Assembly (NCBI RefSeq): GCF_000314995.1
Contig: NZ_BAEO01000063.1
Coordinates: 1-46,947, forward strand
Source: Paraglaciecola arctica BSs20135
GTDB lineage: Bacteria; Pseudomonadota; Gammaproteobacteria; Enterobacterales; Alteromonadaceae
Direction of reading: 5' to 3'
DNA: 46,947 nucleotides
Shown here: in pieces, positions 5,679-42,218 of the stretch
Position numbering within the stretch: position 1 is the first letter of the stretch
How the letters are laid out: each line of letters starts with the position of its first letter
The notes under the pieces: model-generated
The model's input: the letters and a program-made list of their open reading frames with translations, nothing else
Told to the model about the DNA's origin: nothing
The model's database searches: none
Translations under genes and position numbers: made by a program

Positions 5679-6302
5679 TTATTTCTTATTTGATAAGAAC
5701 ACAATCAAATCAACCATGTCATCTTGGTTCATATCTTTAGTGAAGGTCGCTTGATATTTGCCGTTAACAATAAAGTTTGGCACGCTGGTGACGTATTGGC
5801 GGTATTCTTGAACAGCCTTGTTATTCATTTTTAATCTGCTATTTACGCCAAAGCTAGACATCATTTTGTCAAAGTCTTCAGGTTCAACACCATTTACAAT
5901 AAAAATATTTTTTAAGTCTTTAATACCAGCTATGTTCGATCGGGATACGTGAATATAATTAAAGATGGCTTGAATAAGCGCATCATCTTTTTTCAACTCT
6001 CTGGCTACCATCATAGCTTTAGTTGCATCGTCCTGAATGGCTGAACTGGTGAAGCCCATAAAGTTAACGTGAATTTTTTTAAATTCAACATCATCGGCTA
6101 ATTTGGTTTTCATGTTCTTAACTATGGGTTCAAAATTAAAACAATGGCCGCACCAAAACGAAAAGAATTCCATTACTTCTTTTTTCTCAGTGGCTTTATC
6201 TGAGATGATTTTGTAGTGCGTGTCTTCGCGCCATTTTTCTTGGGCACAGGCTTGCAATGGCAGCAATAAAGTTAAACTGAGTAACAACAATATTTTTTTC
6301 AT
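5679..6302 (-). CDS. dsbA: Thiol:disulfide interchange protein DsbA
   Basis: A 207-residue periplasmic oxidase that introduces disulfides into exported proteins. The signal peptide is MKKILLLLSLTLLLPLQACA. The thioredoxin-fold active site is FWCGHCFNFEP (Cys51 and Cys54, with Gly-His between, unlike the CPHC of E. coli DsbA). The cis-proline loop TSVPNF lies near the C-terminus. Length fits the DsbA family (about 208). LQAC resembles a weak lipobox, but ordinary signal-peptidase cleavage is more likely. It is monocistronic, with its own terminator beyond a tandem repeat. srkA, often next to dsbA in other gammaproteobacteria, lies 2 kb upstream on the same strand. Confidence 0.93.
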   Translation of the reverse strand: MKKILLLLSLTLLLPLQACAQEKWREDTHYKIISDKATEKKEVMEFFSFWCGHCFNFEPIVKNMKTKLADDVEFKKIHVNFMGFTSSAIQDDATKAMMVARELKKDDALIQAIFNYIHVSRSNIAGIKDLKNIFIVNGVEPEDFDKMMSSFGVNSRLKMNNKAVQEYRQYVTSVPNFIVNGKYQATFTKDMNQDDMVDLIVFLSNKK

Positions 6303-6384
6303 AATATTTCACAACTAAATTAAAATTTGAAGCAAGATTAGCATAGCTTCTAAAAAAATCCGATAGGACTTTGTAAGCAAGTAT

Positions 6385-6410
6385 AAAAAACGCTCCACGA
6401 AGGAGCGTTT
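6385..6410 (-). terminator. Rho-independent terminator of the porin gene
   Basis: On the minus strand AAACGCTCC and GGAGCGTTT pair around a 5-base loop and run into six T. It lies about 22 bases after the porin stop. Confidence 0.9.
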
Positions 6411-6431
6411 GAGGAGCTTCTAAATAGCTGT

Positions 6432-7553
6432 TTAGAAAATATAGTTTACCGCAACACGTAATAATGTAGTTTCAGCATCATTAAGTTTGTTGTCATATCG
6501 GCTCAAGTCGGTTTTAAACGCAACGTTTGTATCGAAGTCATAGCGTAAACCTAAGGTAATGACGTTATGTTTATTAAATGAACCTTCTTGTAACCCACGT
6601 ACTAAGCCTTCAATCCCTGCTTTATTAGCGTCAGGAAGAGGAAGTGCGTTTACTTGATCAAGAAACTTATACTCTTTACTGTCGAAATTTTCATAAGTCA
6701 CTGAAGGTGTGAATTTGCCCAAACGTAAACCTGCAGTAACGTAATAAGCATCAGATTTTGGGTTAAAAGACTTTTCTGTTTCTAATATTGTGATTTCACC
6801 ACTTACAAACCAATCATATTTATCAACTTCTAATCCAAGACCTAAAAAAGGTGATGTGTCGTTTTCATAGGCCAAATTGTTATACAACTCAGTCAATCCT
6901 AAGTCATTCAATACACTTATGGCTTCTGTTATAGCTGCACTATCTAAAGTTACTTTAGATGTTCCATATACGGCTCTGGCCTTAAACCAATCGTTCACTG
7001 CTTCAACAGAAAATACCGCTGTATTGTTTGCTACAAATTTAACATTGTCGTTATCAACAGTTATTTTTCCTAGAGCAAGTTGCGTATTATATTCCCAGTC
7101 ACCCGCATAAGTACTGTAATCAAATCTTACGCCATCAATATTGTTAAACTCTACGTCATAAACTGCCCGAGGCGCATTAACCCAATGATATGAATAACCA
7201 ACATCTAGAGACGCGGAGTATTTAAACAATGGCAAGCGTAGACGCCCAGCTGAAATGCTCAGCTTATCCGTTGCTTGATAAGTCATATAAGCCCACGCAA
7301 CCTTGGCTTCATAATCGTCTTCGCCACGGGCTAATATTTGTCCTGTGGCCGTCATTTTTTCATTGATATCACCCGTTATTTGGATGGCAAATGAGCTCTC
7401 TTCAGAAAAGCTAATTTTGTCTTCATAACCATATACGGTGTCATCGCTGCTGGTAATTCCGCCGATTAGATTGGCGAAACCGTTGATACGTACTTCTGCT
7501 TGAGCAGTAAATGTGCTGGCGGTCAAAGCCGCGATAGTTAATAATTTTTTCAT
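6432..7553 (-). CDS. Outer-membrane porin-like protein
   Basis: A 373-residue beta-barrel protein. It has a clear signal peptide (MKKLLTIAALTASTFTAQA) followed by EVRINGFANL, and ends in NYIF, the terminal aromatic typical of BAM-folded porins. Alternating hydrophobic strands and the short SAGRLRLPLF segment fit the Gram-negative or phosphate-selective porin-like families. It follows the small PstS-like gene by 14 bases and ends at a strong terminator, so the two form an operon. That pairing suggests a role in phosphate or other anion uptake, but the substrate cannot be read from the sequence. Confidence 0.75.
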   Translation of the reverse strand: MKKLLTIAALTASTFTAQAEVRINGFANLIGGITSSDDTVYGYEDKISFSEESSFAIQITGDINEKMTATGQILARGEDDYEAKVAWAYMTYQATDKLSISAGRLRLPLFKYSASLDVGYSYHWVNAPRAVYDVEFNNIDGVRFDYSTYAGDWEYNTQLALGKITVDNDNVKFVANNTAVFSVEAVNDWFKARAVYGTSKVTLDSAAITEAISVLNDLGLTELYNNLAYENDTSPFLGLGLEVDKYDWFVSGEITILETEKSFNPKSDAYYVTAGLRLGKFTPSVTYENFDSKEYKFLDQVNALPLPDANKAGIEGLVRGLQEGSFNKHNVITLGLRYDFDTNVAFKTDLSRYDNKLNDAETTLLRVAVNYIF

Positions 7554-16940: not shown

Positions 16941-17013
16941 ATTTGTATTAAATTCAGTATATATTCAGGTATTAGTGCAATACTGGAAAGTAGTTCAACG
17001 TAGGGGATTTATT

Positions 17014-17571
17014 ATGAAAATATTAACCGGTCTTATTATATCTGCAGTGACATTAGGCCTGTCTAGTCAAGTTTTGGCACAAACAGAAGTTGAAATCGAA
17101 TGGGACAAACCGGAAAAATACCGTGATGTCAGGCCCAGCAATGAATCGCGCAAAAGATTCAGAGAAGCGACTTTTGAGCGTATTAACAAATATATGAATG
17201 AATTGGCATCGGCAATACCCGATAATAAAAAATTGCTTATGAAAGTAAGCGACCTTGATTTGGCTGGGCAAGTTTGGCCTGCGTCTTTTGTTGGATTGGG
17301 GCATAGTGTATCTGACGTACGGGTCATTAAAAATATAGATATCCCAAGGATGAACTTTAGTTACCAGTTATTGGATGAGTCTGGTGAGATAGTGCAAGAA
17401 GCGGAAGTAAATCTCAAAGATATGTCATTTCTCGATCGTGGTAACCGGTTTTTCAAAAGTGAAATGTTACGTTACGAAAAAAACATGTTGAAACGTTGGT
17501 TTGATGAAGAGTTCGAATCACAAATAACACCGCAGACTGCTAATAAAGAACTAGTTAACCAGAACAGTTAA
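17014..17571 (+). CDS. DUF3016 family exported protein
   Basis: A 185-residue periplasmic protein. The start is taken at ATG 17014 because it is preceded by TAGGGG and begins a proper signal peptide (MKILTGLIISAVTLGLSSQVLA). The mature part contains VEIEWDKPEKYRDVRP, a KVSDLDLAGQVWP segment and ends with a basic-aromatic helix (EKNMLKRWFDEEF), as in DUF3016 proteins. Function is unknown. Its stop codon overlaps the stop of the convergent diguanylate cyclase gene. Confidence 0.8.
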   Translation: MKILTGLIISAVTLGLSSQVLAQTEVEIEWDKPEKYRDVRPSNESRKRFREATFERINKYMNELASAIPDNKKLLMKVSDLDLAGQVWPASFVGLGHSVSDVRVIKNIDIPRMNFSYQLLDESGEIVQEAEVNLKDMSFLDRGNRFFKSEMLRYEKNMLKRWFDEEFESQITPQTANKELVNQNS

Positions 17572-19202
17572 TCTAAATGTTCAGTGGGTGAATATACGCT
17601 GTAAGAGTTTTTATTTGTTGTTTTGGCAACATACAAGGCAGTGTCGGCTTGTTTAATGATTGTTTCTGGCGTCAATAATTGATTGGGCTGTGAAGTCGCT
17701 ATACCAATACTTATGGTCACGTAGTCTGCAACATTGCTATATTTATGTGGCAGCGCTACGTTTTTGAATTTTTCAAGGATATGTGTTGCTATATCTTGTG
17801 CTCCTTTTGACCCCGTGTTTGGCAGAACACAAATAAATTCCTCTCCTCCATATCGGGCAACGAAATCGTTATCTCGATGCAGGGAATCGCATATAATCTT
17901 AGATACTTCCTTTAAACACTCGTCTCCCGCTGAGTGACCATAGTTATCGTTATATAATTTGAAACAATCTATATCCATGAGCAATATGGATACGCTATAT
18001 TTTTGTCTAGTCGATAGCTCAAGATCATGTTTTAAACGAGTGTCTAACGCTCTTCGGTTAGCAATACCGGTTAGCCCATCTGACATAGAGAGGTGTTCAA
18101 GTTTTTGCTTTTGTATTTCAATTGTCTGTGTGAATTCTTTAAAGGCTTCAGCCAAATCAGTAATTTCATCATTACCATTTAACATAGTTTGATACTCGAA
18201 CCCTTGGGTTTCGTTACGCACCATTTGATTGAAAATACTGATCCTTCTAAGGATACGTTGCTGAAACAAAACGACTATAACCAATAGAAAAACAACGCCA
18301 CCTATCAAGACAAGCCTGATAAGTTGGGTCTGCTTTTTCATTTCGATAACAGAGGCGGCTACATGATCGGTAATACTCATTTCTGTTTGGTTAGTAACAA
18401 AACCAAGTTGTGCGACGTAATCTTTAATTAAGTTGTGTACAAAATTTTCTCGACCTATAGATCTGCCTTCTAAACGTAGAGATTTTATTGTTAATGCCTC
18501 CATACCATTCTCATTAAAAAGTAATGTTTTGAACTGGTTAGTTAATTGATGCTTAATTGCCTGATCTTGCCCTTTGGCAGAAATAACACCTAGTTCGTCT
18601 AGTTGTTTGTTTAATTGGCCAAATAAAAACCTAACTCGTTGCAGTCTTTTTTCGTTCAATGCTCTGCTGACATCCACTGAAGCTTGCGAAAACCCTAACG
18701 TCCAAATGGACGAATTCTGATTATTAAGATCAATAGCTTGAGCGTTAAGCTCGTACATTTGCGCTTTTAGTAACTCGATATTATTCTTATTTTGCAAACG
18801 CTCTTCTATCAAAGAAGAAAATTCAACTAATTCCATGGCAATGGTGCTTAGCTGTGTATCTAAAAACTCATTTTCGAAGATTTCTTTCGCTGCTTTACTG
18901 GTATTAGTCAGGTTAGTCTGGAGTTGTTTGTCAGCTAAACGTTTTGACGCATTTGATGAAGAATTTGACAAAATATCTGTGGACTCTAATAGGGTAGCAG
19001 CTTGACTATAGAGCTGGCTTATTCGTATTAGGTTGGGTAAGGATTTATCTGATACATCTGTTAATGTCGATTCAAAACTAAGTAAGCGCGTAAAGGTAAA
19101 ATAACTGAGTAGGACAAAAACAAAGAGTATTCCCAGTAGGCCAGCACTAAATACTTTTAGCAGTGAAATACGTGGGCTTTTTTTGGTTACTAACACAGTC
19201 AT
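17568..19202 (-). CDS. Membrane diguanylate cyclase (GGDEF)
   Basis: A 544-residue c-di-GMP synthase. There is a helix at about 15-38, a long helical periplasmic domain (40-290), a second helix (295-313) and a HAMP-like linker. The GGDEF domain has LLMDIDCFKLYND, the active-site variant GGEEF at 452-456 and an inhibitory I-site RDND exactly five residues before it, so it should be active and product-controlled. The all-helical sensor recalls TorS-like receptors that take their signal from a periplasmic partner. Its start overlaps the stop of the upstream nucleotidase-like gene (ATGA), implying coupled translation and a shared task. Confidence 0.92.
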   Translation of the reverse strand: MTVLVTKKSPRISLLKVFSAGLLGILFVFVLLSYFTFTRLLSFESTLTDVSDKSLPNLIRISQLYSQAATLLESTDILSNSSSNASKRLADKQLQTNLTNTSKAAKEIFENEFLDTQLSTIAMELVEFSSLIEERLQNKNNIELLKAQMYELNAQAIDLNNQNSSIWTLGFSQASVDVSRALNEKRLQRVRFLFGQLNKQLDELGVISAKGQDQAIKHQLTNQFKTLLFNENGMEALTIKSLRLEGRSIGRENFVHNLIKDYVAQLGFVTNQTEMSITDHVAASVIEMKKQTQLIRLVLIGGVVFLLVIVVLFQQRILRRISIFNQMVRNETQGFEYQTMLNGNDEITDLAEAFKEFTQTIEIQKQKLEHLSMSDGLTGIANRRALDTRLKHDLELSTRQKYSVSILLMDIDCFKLYNDNYGHSAGDECLKEVSKIICDSLHRDNDFVARYGGEEFICVLPNTGSKGAQDIATHILEKFKNVALPHKYSNVADYVTISIGIATSQPNQLLTPETIIKQADTALYVAKTTNKNSYSVYSPTEHLD

Positions 19203-20746
19203 TCAATCACTCGTTTTATTCTTAATTCAAATTTAGGCGTGATAGTTTTCTTCTGTTGTATCGTGCGCGTGACAATATCGGACAACAAGGGAGCGGGTTG
19301 AGTATTTTGTTGATGATGCTGTGCATTCAGAAATACACTATAACCATCTCCACCGTGTGCCAGATAATCTGAGATAGCTACTGAATATGTTTGCTTAACA
19401 TCTAATGGCTGCCCATTTACTTGTATTGTTTGTATACGTTCATTGACCGGCTTTTCAATAGAATATGTAAAAGAAATACCTGATACTTGCAAAAAACGTC
19501 CTTTGACGTCTTCCACTTGACTTACGCTATTTTCTAAAGCCTGCCTTAATTGCTCTCCTGTCACACTTAACACGGTAGCACGTGACCTAAAAGGTAATTC
19601 AGTGGCAATGTCTCTGCGAGTGATTGCAGCTCCTTTTTTATAACTTTTATCACCACGAATATCGCCACCATTTACTAAAGCAATATCTGTTTTGGCATGA
19701 TTTTTCAAGGAATCCGCTATAAAGTTCCCAATGGGCATTTCCATCGTTCGAATGAGTGTTTTGGATGTGTCTATTGTACTACCCCAAACTCCGATCTTCT
19801 GATTTAAGAGTCTGTCAAGCCTATGATTATATTCGTTAATCAGCAATGAAGTGGTTGGCCTAGTAGGCAAAAGCGAGTAATTAATTTTAGGGGTATCGAT
19901 AATAAGGTTTTTTTCTTGTTTGTTTCCTTGCCAACTCATGCGTAGCAACATGAATGGTTCTTGGTTAATAATTGAGTAGACTTTATTAAGGTGATCTTGT
20001 TTAGGTACACTAAGTACCCTTAATGCAAAATCAATTTTATTTTCTGATATAAGAGTTTGGTAATAGTCTCTTTCTTTGGAATAAACTAGTACCATTAATT
20101 CTGCGCCTTGTTGTTTTAGCGCGACAATTTGCTGTTGAATAATTTGTCGAGGTTCAAACACTCGGGCCCTTTGTAATAAATATTCCTCAACCACCTCTTC
20201 ATCAAGAATCGATATAAAACCAACTTTAGTGTTACCTTTTTCGACAATAAGGCTTGTTAAAATACCTTCAAGGTTACTATTGGTTAATGGATCATAAAGA
20301 TTGCTACTGACAATTGGGAATGCCGCTTCATAGGAACGCAAAGTGAGTTCATCTTCAAAATAACTAAAATCTCTTTTGGTGAGTGTCATTAAATCAGGTT
20401 CTAGTGTATTAAGAATGTCAATGATATGTGAGCCCTTGTCTAGGCTGGAAAAGGGACTAGGCCCTAAACTCCCCCCTGCAAAAGTAAATATAGTGGGGGT
20501 GTCTTCAGCTCTCATTTTTTCTAGCAAGCCTGCAAGGCCAGAGTAAGTGCCGCGGGTTTGAATTCCTATGTCAGGCATACTGCCTGCAAACACTAAGGTT
20601 AAATGTTTTTCTGTTGATGGTGAAGAAGATGCAGACGCTGAAGAAGGTGCAGATGCTGAGGAAGGTGCAGATGCTGAGGAAGGTGCAGCTTTTGTCATTA
20701 TAATCATCAAAAGCACAACGATTAAGAATCGAAATATTATGACCAT
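19199..20746 (-). CDS. Degenerate 5'-nucleotidase-family periplasmic protein
   Basis: A 515-residue exported protein with the UshA/5'-nucleotidase layout. After the signal peptide comes a Ser-Ala-Pro repeat spacer (21-44), then a metallophosphatase-like domain (48-300) and a 5'-nucleotidase C-terminal domain (330-475). The metal-site motifs have been replaced: TNDxH reads AGSMP, GGD reads GGS, GNHE reads KRDF, and the two later histidine motifs are absent. The C-terminal substrate pocket is kept (MEMPIGNFIAD, NGGDIRG at 359-365, LPFRS, GGDGYSVF at 465-472). Hydrolysis is therefore unlikely and ligand binding possible. It overlaps the diguanylate cyclase gene by 4 bases; a sensor role is inference. 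Confidence 0.8.
   Translation of the reverse strand: MVIIFRFLIVVLLMIIMTKAAPSSASAPSSASAPSSASASSSPSTEKHLTLVFAGSMPDIGIQTRGTYSGLAGLLEKMRAEDTPTIFTFAGGSLGPSPFSSLDKGSHIIDILNTLEPDLMTLTKRDFSYFEDELTLRSYEAAFPIVSSNLYDPLTNSNLEGILTSLIVEKGNTKVGFISILDEEVVEEYLLQRARVFEPRQIIQQQIVALKQQGAELMVLVYSKERDYYQTLISENKIDFALRVLSVPKQDHLNKVYSIINQEPFMLLRMSWQGNKQEKNLIIDTPKINYSLLPTRPTTSLLINEYNHRLDRLLNQKIGVWGSTIDTSKTLIRTMEMPIGNFIADSLKNHAKTDIALVNGGDIRGDKSYKKGAAITRRDIATELPFRSRATVLSVTGEQLRQALENSVSQVEDVKGRFLQVSGISFTYSIEKPVNERIQTIQVNGQPLDVKQTYSVAISDYLAHGGDGYSVFLNAQHHQQNTQPAPLLSDIVTRTIQQKKTITPKFELRIKRVIE
20625..20688. repeat. 18-bp in-frame minisatellite
   Basis: Three and a half copies of an 18-bp unit (GAAGGTGCAGATGCTGAG on the plus strand; units 2 and 3 identical, unit 1 diverged) lie inside the nucleotidase-like gene. 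They encode the hexapeptide repeat SSASAP after the signal peptide. Copy changes keep the frame and only alter spacer length. Confidence 0.9.
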
Positions 20747-20803: not shown

Positions 20804-20833
20804 AGGGGTGTCATCAATATCGATAACACCCCT
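20804..20833 (-). terminator. Probable valS terminator hairpin
   Basis: AGGGGTGT and ACACCCCT pair about 18 bases past the valS stop, with an inner ATC/GAT pair in the loop. The T-run is missing, so termination is only likely. Confidence 0.45.
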
Positions 20834-20851
20834 TATAGTCACAATTACACT

Positions 20852-23704
20852 TTAAATAGATTCAATGCTACTACGTTGTTCATGTAATTTTCCCATCAGC
20901 ATAGTAAAGTCGGCTAGCTTAGCTTTTTCTTTCTCAATCACAGCGTCAGGTGCATTACTCACAAACTTCTCATTATTGAGTTTTCCTTGAGTACGAGCAT
21001 AGTCTTTTTCTAACTTATCCAATGCTTTGGCAATCCTAGCTAATTCGGCTCCTTTATCAATCAAGCCTGCCATGGGGATCATAACTTCAAGTGAGCCCAA
21101 TAAAGATGTCGCACATGCTGGTGCTTTTTCACCTTCACTTAATGCTGTTACTGTCTCTAGCTTGGCAATTGAGTGTAAGAAAATGGCATTTTCTTCGAGT
21201 CGTCTAATATCCTCAGCAGAAGCATTGCGCAACAACACGGGTAAAGGTTTACTTGGGGCAATGTCCATTTCGCCGCGAATGGTGCGAACGGCTAATACAA
21301 ATCCTTTCACCCATTCCAAATCTTGCATCGCTGTGGCATCAACCTTAGCGGCATCATATTCAGGGTAGGCCTGATTCATGATGGTGGCAGAATGACAGTT
21401 AGTCAGAGGAGATACATTTTGCCAAATTGTCTCAGTAATAAACGGCATAATAGGATGCATCAATCTAAGTAAAGATTCTAAAACAGTGACTAGAGTATGC
21501 CTAGTGCCCCGCTGTTGTTCTTCGTTACCTTGTAATAACACCGGCTTGGTTAATTCTATATACCAACCACAAAACTGATCCCAAGTGAATTCGTATAATG
21601 TATGTGCCGCAATGTCAAAACGATAAGTATCCATCGCATTACGATAGGCTTTTATAGTGTTTTGGTATTGGCCGATGATCCACTTGTCAGCCAATGAAAA
21701 AGTCATTTTTGAATCTGCTTTAAACCCACAGTCGAACTCTTGGGTATTCATCAGTACAAAGTTACTGGCATTCCACAACTTGTTGCAAAAATTTCTATAA
21801 CCTTCTAGGCGCTTCATATCCCAATTGATATCACGCCCAGTAGAAGCAAGGGCTGCAAGGGTAAAGCGTAATGCATCTGTACCGTGGGCCTCTATGCCAT
21901 TCGGAAATTGTTTAGCTGTTTGTTTTTTGATTTTTTCAGCCATTTTTGGCTGCATCATATTACCAGTACGTTTTTCGAGTAAATCTTCCAGAGAAATACC
22001 ATCAATCATATCCAAAGGATCGATAACATTACCTTTAGATTTAGACATTTTATGGCCATCATCATCTCGAATAAGACCTGTCACATATACGGTTTTGAAA
22101 GGCACTTGAGGTTTGCCATTTTCATCTTTAAGAAAATGCATGGTCATCATGATCATTCTGGCCACCCAGAAGAAAATGATATCGAAGCCAGTGACTAAAA
22201 CATCGCTAGGATGGAAGGTTTTTAAGTCTTCAGTATTTTCAGGCCAACCTAAGGTAGAAAATGTCCAAAGCGCCGAAGAGAACCAAGTGTCTAATACATC
22301 TTCATCTTGTCTAAGCACCACATTAGCAGCTAAGTCGTTTTCTGCTCTCACTTCAGCTTCATCGCGACCCACATAGACTTTACCTTGCTCGTCATACCAA
22401 GCCGGTATTCTATGACCCCACCATAGTTGACGAGAGATACACCAATCTTGGATATCATTCATCCAAGAAAAGTACATGTTTTCATATTGTTTAGGTACAA
22501 ATTCAATCTCGCCATTGGTCACAGCATCTGCTGCAACTTTGGCTAATGGTGCGGCGCGCACATACCATTGATCGGTTAACATAGGTTCAATTACCACACC
22601 ACCTCTATCACCATAAGGGACAGTCAAGTCGTGGTCTTTTACTTCTGCTAATAAACCCATTTCATCAAATTTGGCCACTATGGCTTTACGGGCGACAAAA
22701 CGGTCTAAATTTTGAAACTCTTCAGGTATTGCAGAACTCAGAGCATCACTGGGTTCACCCTTAGTATCGTATATTTCAGCTTGCTGGCGAATTTCACCAG
22801 AGAAAGTCAAAATATTGATCATAGGTAATTGATGACGTTTACCCACTTCATAATCGTTAAAGTCATGAGCAGGAGTTATTTTTACGCAACCTGTGCCTTT
22901 TTCCATATCTGCATGTTCATCACCGACAATAGGAATACGCCGATTAACTAAAGGTAAATCGATAAACTTGCCAATTAAGTCTTTATATTTTGGATCTTCT
23001 GGATTAACCGCTACGCCTGTATCACCTAACATGGTTTCAGGTCTGGTTGTGGCGACCACAAGGTAATCTTTGCCTTCAGTGGTTTTGACCCCGTCAGCTA
23101 AAGGATAACGAAATTGCCACATGTGCCCTTTTTTATCTATATTTTCGACTTCAAGATCAGATATGGCAGTAAGAAGTTTAGGATCCCAGTTAACCAGTCG
23201 TTTACCGCGATAGATTAAATTTTCTGAATGTAGGCGCACAAACACTTCGTTTACTGCGTTTGAAAGCCCTTTGTCCATGGTAAAACGCTCACGATCCCAA
23301 TCCACTGATGCACCCAAACGACGCATTTGGTTGGTAATGGTATTGCCCGATTCGGCTTTCCATTCCCAAATTTTGTCGATAAAGGCTTCGCGGCCTAATT
23401 CTTTTCGAGTTGGGCCATCTTCTGCTGCTAGTTTTCGCTCCACTACCATTTGAGTGGCGATCCCAGCGTGGTCAGTACCCACTTGCCATAAGGTATTATT
23501 ACCCGACATACGTTTGTAGCGGGTTAAGGCGTCCATAATGGTTTGTTGAAACGCATGACCCATATGCAGGCTGCCTGTTACGTTAGGCGGCGGGATCATG
23601 ATGCTATATGACTCGCCTTCTCCTGAAGGCTTAAATTGTCCGCTGTCTTCCCACTTTTGGTATATATCGCGTTCTATATTTTGTGGATTAAATGTCTTAT
23701 CCAT
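20852..23704 (-). CDS. valS: Valyl-tRNA synthetase
   Basis: A 950-residue class I synthetase (E. coli 951) that charges tRNA-Val. The HIGH motif is [15 protein letters not shown] and the KMSKS motif is [12 protein letters not shown]. The editing domain carries [17 protein letters not shown], and the C-terminal coiled coil is seen in [20 protein letters not shown]. The start is ATG 23704 (MDKTFNPQ), which overlaps the holC stop by 8 bases; a longer frame to 23746 lies inside holC and lacks family residues. It is last in the pepA-holC-valS operon, the same order as in E. coli. Confidence 0.98.
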
Positions 23705-24164
23705 TATTTTGTGTCTCGTTAATGCTTGAGGCGGGTAGGGTATCAAGTTGATTGCCTAACGCTCTATATTGTTTATATCTTTCTCTGGCCTGTGGTTTGA
23801 GTTGTTCTTTTGCAGGCACAAAATCAATGACTTGTCTAAATCGTTGATGGAAATCGGGGATGTTGTCAGCCAGATTAATCAGTATTGGTCGATTAAATTG
23901 GCTAGGTGTTTGCCAGCATATTTCAACTGGGGCTCCGCCCACTGGACCCTCTCCGCTTAAATTATGTGGAACAAAGGCATCATTGGGTAACTGCCATAAC
24001 AATTCATCAAATTGTTCAGCCTGTTGTTGATCTTGGCAATACACTAAACATTTTTGTTTTTGCCGATAACTACGGGTTGCCAACAAACAAGCCAGCGCAA
24101 AGTGCGCTGGCTGTTGATGTGTATCGTTTGTTTCATCAAGCAGATAAAACCTTACATTTGACAT
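23697..24164 (-). CDS. holC: DNA polymerase III chi subunit
   Basis: A 155-residue protein that links the clamp loader to single-strand-binding protein. Family features are the N-terminal [48 protein letters not shown] and [22 protein letters not shown]. It lies between pepA (24 bases) and valS (8-base overlap), the usual gammaproteobacterial order. Confidence 0.95.
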
Positions 24165-42133: not shown

Positions 42134-42218
42134 GCCAGTGTGGTGGAATTGGTAGACACGCTAGATTCAAAATCTGGTTTCTTCGGGAGTGGCGGTTCGA
42201 GTCCGCCCACTGGTACCA
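42134..42218 (+). tRNA. tRNA-Leu (CAA)
   Basis: An 85-base class II tRNA with encoded CCA. The acceptor arms GCCAGTG and CACTGGT pair with one G-T. The anticodon loop TTCAAAA gives CAA, reading UUG. A long variable arm (GTTTCTTCGGGAGT region) and the T-arm GGCGGTTCGAGTCCGCC are complete. It marks the border between ordinary genes and a repeat-rich region. Confidence 0.97.

Follow-up and report, generated by a model that had tools for sequence, protein, structure and literature searches.

The Gene Pair and Its Two Proteins

The window analyzed here is the whole contig NZ_BAEO01000063.1 (46,947 nucleotides) of the 5.96-Mb Alteromonadaceae-type genome of Paraglaciecola arctica BSs20135, and our subject is a pair of minus-strand genes downstream of valS (20852-23746), which encode a 5'-nucleotidase homologue, proposed to be a periplasmic receptor, and a membrane diguanylate cyclase. 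A sequence-only reading had described the first protein as catalytically dead and had proposed that it binds an extracellular nucleotide or related ligand and thereby sets the synthesis of cyclic di-guanosine monophosphate (c-di-GMP) by the second. Both open reading frames (ORFs) were found where that reading had placed them, as was the ATGA in which the stop of one gene overlaps the start of the other (Table 1). The observation itself is confirmed and the interpretation partly supported, the proposed architecture being supported by independent comparative evidence.

In the receptor, the 5'-nucleotidase fold covers both domains, the C-terminal domain is matched by Pfam (PF02872, E 5.1e-42) and the motifs NGGDIRG and GGDGYSVF are present, so that the nucleotidase fold and its C-terminal pocket are kept, as had been claimed. 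The Metallophos domain (PF00149) gives no Pfam match even at E<=1, and the structural model is uncertain at the lost metal site, with a predicted local distance difference test score (pLDDT) <50 at residues 93-98 and 126-128. The host genome holds a single match to this protein at E<=0.001. A repeated Ala-Pro-Ser-Ser linker lies behind the export signal (window 20630-20690), where the alignment is gapped in nearly all other family members.

The cyclase has two hydrophobic helices enclosing a helical region of ~250 residues, followed by a GGDEF domain with GGEEF at residues 452-456 and RxxD at residues 443-446; the helical periplasmic domain, active site and I-site of the sequence-only reading are thus all present. 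By sequence it qualifies as a diguanylate cyclase, with an intact GG[DE]EF motif and RxxD I-site, and Pfam detects no EAL domain in it and no periplasmic-binding-protein match in either protein of the pair. The assignment of the sensor to the TorS fold comes from fold comparison. The Pfam TorS model does not match the window cyclase and matches relatives weakly (E 0.016 at locus L154; E 0.024 for the Azospirillum kinase of L198, described below), while a search of Protein Data Bank sequences with the sensor profile returned mostly unrelated helical proteins, torS appearing at E 0.99.

Loss of the Catalytic Center and Retention of the Pocket

Relatives of the receptor, 64 in all, were aligned with E. 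coli UshA; in a second alignment, 73 dead proteins were set against 35 canonical homologues that the same searches had yielded. We take D41, H43, D84, N116, H217 and H252 to be the metal ligands of UshA and presume a role in its pocket for the arginines. At UshA D41, H43, D84, N116, H117, H217 and H252 the window receptor reads S, P, G/S, K, R, S/K and L, the two alternatives coming from the two different alignments; all seven ligand positions are substituted, which together with the missing PF00149 match bears out the claim that the metal-binding motifs have been replaced. Of the dead proteins, 32 retain none of the seven, 38 retain one and 3 retain two; of the canonical ones, 22 retain all seven, 11 retain six and 2 retain five. 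The histidines H43, H117 and H217 are retained in 0/73 dead proteins, H252 in 1/73, N116 in 4/73, D84 in 7/73 and D41 in 32/73; the ligand aspartates are not uniformly lost. Where all canonical proteins have Asn-His at positions 116-117 (35/35), dead proteins have Lys (60/73) and Arg (67/73).

The pocket shows the opposite pattern. Both base-stacking aromatics and the pocket aspartate (D504) are retained in all 73 dead proteins, as is R379, and R410 is retained in 72 of them (UshA alignment); variation is seen at R375, N431 and the former metal site. The window receptor has the aromatic base sandwich and the pocket aspartate as F386, Y461 and D467. Base-sandwich roles of the UshA-type residues Phe429 and Phe498 are given in passages of a published account (PMC7922932). 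With D103, G105 and H107 invariant in 73/73, a D-x-G-x-H motif was considered as a hallmark of the dead state, yet it is not exclusive: active proteins share it (P0175, P0178-P0182, P0191, L221-L225), D-A-N is read in six dead proteins (P0158-P0161, P0166, P0167), and the hallmark was ruled out.

Linkage of Receptor and Sensor Across Genomes

In a search of 295 Alteromonadaceae genomes, with limited candidates per genome scored for receptor and sensor alike, a full-length receptor relative was found in 62 genomes and the sensor part of the cyclase in the identical 62. We read 64 loci, comprising 61 from these family genomes, two Paraglaciecola contigs from metagenome-assembled genomes (MAGs) and the window. 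The cyclase adjoins the receptor on the same strand in 64/64, at a spacing of -92 to +94 bp, and the 4-base overlap seen in the window recurs in 28. The cyclase ORF is shortened or split in two loci (L073 and L087); GGEEF and RxxD are intact in the 62 uninterrupted relatives. Co-occurrence of metal-ligand loss and gene adjacency across genomes, on which the sequence-only reading had staked its proposal, was found in 64/64 loci and in identical 62-genome sets, and since the same losses recur in every locus the pairing is beyond chance.

The linkage extends to the order, where 19 of 394 genomes have a receptor match of >400 bits; 17 of these 19 have a sensor of >280 bits, the best other sensor match in the 394 genomes reaching 51.4 bits. 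Among nine loci from outside the family (L154-L162), seven carry the same cyclase and two are exceptions. At L161 (5115-7494) the partner, of 289 aa, has retained the sensor along with its two membrane helices but lacks GGDEF or any other output domain, and the receptor pocket has drifted. At L162 (Alginatibacterium sediminis, reached via an identical protein) the receptor gene is followed by that of a 645-aa cyclase whose similarity to the sensor is weak (13.2 bits); among 12 genomes of another family, only G382 has this type. Genes flanking the pair fall into 48 cluster combinations in 73 loci, a count inflated by mechanical ORF calling and contig ends. Across the 22 loci that share valS, distances between receptors correlate with distances between sensors beyond valS (partial r 0.93, 0/2000 permutations), and those of the GGDEF part do likewise (partial r 0.84). 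Receptor and cyclase evolve together as a unit, although contact between the proteins is not proven thereby, and their pairing is well supported.

An intact-metal homologue beside the same cyclase was looked for and found neither in 18 of the 38 weaker family receptor matches (L095-L112), none of which has such a sensor partner, nor in 20 loci from other classes. The nearest cases in the family are an unrelated GGDEF gene without the sensor domain 272 bp downstream at L111 and a GGDEF gene 3 kb off on the opposite strand at L096. The other-class loci stem from a phylum search of 229 genomes, in which 26 genomes of other classes match the receptor at E<=1e-45; in all 20 loci examined N116 and H117 are intact, with 5-7 of the seven ligands retained altogether, and the flanks, several of which end at contig ends, contain neither a sensor nor a GGDEF match.

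One dead member stands outside the receptor-cyclase system, at L094, where no sensor partner occurs in the 8.9-kb stretch. There the dead nucleotidase homologue (5812-7269) is preceded by a nucleosidase-like gene (PF01048; 4597-5616), whose product apparently carries an export signal, and the same genome also has a receptor-cyclase pair. A class search of 369 genomes added no dead member at E<=1e-40. Clusters of 3-4 canonical 5'-nucleotidase-type genes were seen at L163, L164 and L165, in genomes of another family in the order.

Exchange of Output in Azospirillum

When the receptor was compared with plasmids by tblastn, 36 records were returned with Azospirillum on top. On plasmid p3 of A. brasilense Cd (L198), a receptor homologue without a Metallophos match has T-A-S-K-R-N-S at the seven ligand positions, its pocket residues being R-R-R-F-Y-D. 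After a gap of five bases follows the gene of a hybrid histidine kinase of 1012 aa, residues 18-386 of which match the cyclase-sensor profile almost end to end (positions 14-372 of 374, 113.9 bits) and whose output is HisKA-HATPase-receiver-Hpt. Eight plasmid records contain the complete kinase; they coincide with the first eight of the nucleotidase search, and in them the two genes are adjacent; the dead-nucleotidase motifs were read in one of the eight. GNHE is retained in the homologues of Tistrella and A. oryzae, and the Azospirillum sp. B510 homologue has a Metallophos match.

At L198 (4890-10662) the dead nucleotidase, the hybrid kinase with the TorS-like sensor and a second kinase/receiver gene stand in a row. 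A further arrangement occurs at L196 (837-3426), where an OpuAC-type binding-protein gene is directly followed by a cyclase gene; the sensor of this cyclase is weakly related (46 bits, whole profile), and the two genes are possibly a sister system.

Origin and Breadth of the Dead Family

Among the 57 proteins listed in a search with the L162 protein, 31 lack PF00149, and none of these 31, which include proteins of Marinomonas, a Vibrio MAG and a spirochaete MAG, has the Asn-His pair. In a tree of 64 proteins, 37 dead and 27 active members are split by one branch (100/98), the alignment here including the motif columns. A quick tree from the C-domain only needs three changes for the dead state, and a tree with the dead proteins grouped scored higher and was not rejected (p-AU 0.825, approximately unbiased test). 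Several independent losses of catalysis were considered; a single origin of the loss is likely, though not proven.

Features of the Locus and Its Surroundings

Table 1. Features of the receptor-cyclase gene pair, in window coordinates.
Feature	Position	Strand	Basis
Dead 5'-nucleotidase homologue, 515 aa, proposed periplasmic receptor	19199..20746	-	ORF; PF02872 only; two-domain fold; family conservation
Hydrophobic N-terminus, predicted export signal (~residues 1-20)	20687..20746	-	Translation by eye; helix 2-18 in model
N-domain, phosphatase fold without metal site (~residues 45-290)	19877..20614	-	Alignments, fold comparison
Lys124-Arg125 replacing UshA metal/catalytic Asn116-His117	20372..20377	-	Alignment with family
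C-domain PF02872 (residues 333-472), substrate pocket R333, R364, F386, Y461, D467	19331..19750	-	Pfam; pocket conservation
ATGA overlap, receptor stop/cyclase start	19199..19202	-	Receptor TGA 19199-19201, cyclase ATG 19200-19202
Membrane diguanylate cyclase, 544 aa	17568..19202	-	ORF; PF00990 E 1.7e-50
Periplasmic helical sensor, TorS fold (~residues 43-290), between two membrane helices	18333..19076	-	Fold comparison
GGDEF domain (residues 373-532), GGEEF 17835-17849, I-site RxxD 17865-17876	17607..18086	-	Pfam PF00990, motifs

Between valS and the receptor gene lies an 8-base perfect inverted repeat with a 14-base loop and without a T run (20804-20833). The cyclase gene stands tail-to-tail with a plus-strand DUF3016 gene (16975-17571), which it overlaps by 4 bases and which is preceded by a beta-propeller gene (PF09826). 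No Rfam element occurs near the gene pair, the sole match in the window being a tRNA at 42134. Shuffled sequence had more promoter-like sites (11.0) than were observed (7); terminator-like sites exceeded the shuffles (7 vs. 2.3) but are located inside the two genes.

Proposed Mechanism and Alternatives

These data suggest that an old nucleotidase has been turned into a sensor for an extracellular nucleotide-like compound. We consider it probable that the pseudo-nucleotidase is a receptor for a nucleotide-like ligand in the periplasm and, via the TorS-like sensor, governs the synthesis of c-di-GMP. An exported 5'-nucleotidase would have lost its dimetal center and kept its nucleotide-binding C-domain, by which it may bind a periplasmic nucleotide, nucleoside or related phosphorylated compound without hydrolysis. 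Binding would shift the receptor between open and closed states, the receptor would dock on the helical domain of the cyclase as TorT does on TorS, and the signal would cross the two membrane helices and a HAMP-like linker to alter the activity of the GGEEF domain. Nucleotide binding, a receptor-sensor complex and control of the cyclase are plausible from sequence because the pocket is conserved; the ligand class, the docking, the conformational switch and any direction of change in c-di-GMP we infer.

The pair may also be a receptor and transducer whose ligand is not nucleotide-like, with a repurposed pocket or with a partner protein or the envelope state as the thing sensed. The variability of R375, N431 and the former metal site would fit such a ligand, as would invariant residues of the dead family's own, e.g., D103 and H107; however, the near-complete retention of the aromatics, D504, R379 and R410 is unexpected for a wholly new ligand, and we regard this explanation as unlikely, while giving it more weight than the remaining two. 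That the same receptor-sensor unit serves two kinds of output, cyclase and kinase, is the strongest single argument that its parts function together. We hold it quite improbable that a small ligand is sensed by the helical domain of the cyclase itself, with the dead nucleotidase simply a co-transcribed periplasmic protein such as a scavenger. Slightly less probable still is that the nucleotidase remains an enzyme with an altered, perhaps metal-independent, active site on the conserved Lys-Arg; the conservation of these replacement residues fits an active site, but no dead protein among the 73 retains more than two of the seven ligands.

A broader proposal, for and against which we find the case evenly balanced, is that one ancient catalytic loss gave rise to a family of pseudo-nucleotidases, spanning at least Gamma- and Alphaproteobacteria and annotated as 5'-nucleotidases, which would act as receptors of extracellular nucleotides on TorS-like sensors, their outputs having been swapped between c-di-GMP synthesis and phosphorelay. 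Candidate sources of nucleotides for such receptors include lysed neighbors or DNA. If true, the pair would link extracellular nucleotides to biofilm-type decisions by a molecular route, and it would clearly exemplify the recruitment of an enzyme fold to serve a TorS-type sensor as its periplasmic receptor. Among genes annotated as 5'-nucleotidase/UDP-sugar diphosphatase or bifunctional metallophosphatase/5'-nucleotidase, some probably encode non-enzymes.

Comparison With Known Systems

Within the titles and abstract openings of open-licence PubMed Central articles we found no dead nucleotidase described as coupled to a cyclase or kinase, and the open-licence search likewise gave no description of the A. 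brasilense pair of dead nucleotidase and hybrid kinase. The main text of a review of the stimuli of c-di-GMP signaling uses the word nucleotidase 0 times (PMC8846402). The two-domain fold and C-domain pocket are shared with the 5'-nucleotidases UshA and CD73, from which the window receptor differs in having lost the dimetal center and the catalytic histidine. The A. brasilense pair has a homologous dead receptor and a homologous sensor domain encoded by adjacent genes but the phosphorelay output in place of GGDEF.

The sequence-only reading had likened the arrangement to TorT/TorS, which senses trimethylamine N-oxide and for which, going by the titles of 3o1h and 3o1i, TorS-TorT complexes have been solved. 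The likeness holds for the TorS-fold sensor and for the receptor gene adjoining that of its transducer; it fails for the receptor fold and the kinase output. By Pfam (L191 genes), TorS is a hybrid kinase and its partner TorT belongs to the Peripla_BP-type binding proteins, whereas the window pair joins a receptor of 5'-nucleotidase fold to a GGDEF output and has kinase output only in its Azospirillum relative. Control of a membrane c-di-GMP enzyme by a periplasmic binding protein is known from the polyamine-sensing NspS/MbaA of Vibrio cholerae (PMC8967002), but there the receptor is a binding protein and MbaA has both GGDEF and EAL. Similarly, in the L-arginine response of Salmonella the c-di-GMP protein STM1987 requires the periplasmic binding protein ArtI in order to sense, and it does so via a dCACHE_1 domain, ArtI being a putative arginine-binding protein (PMC8846402). 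Overall, the pair would work like TorT/TorS and NspS/MbaA and is a member of neither, its receptor being a pseudoenzyme of another fold.
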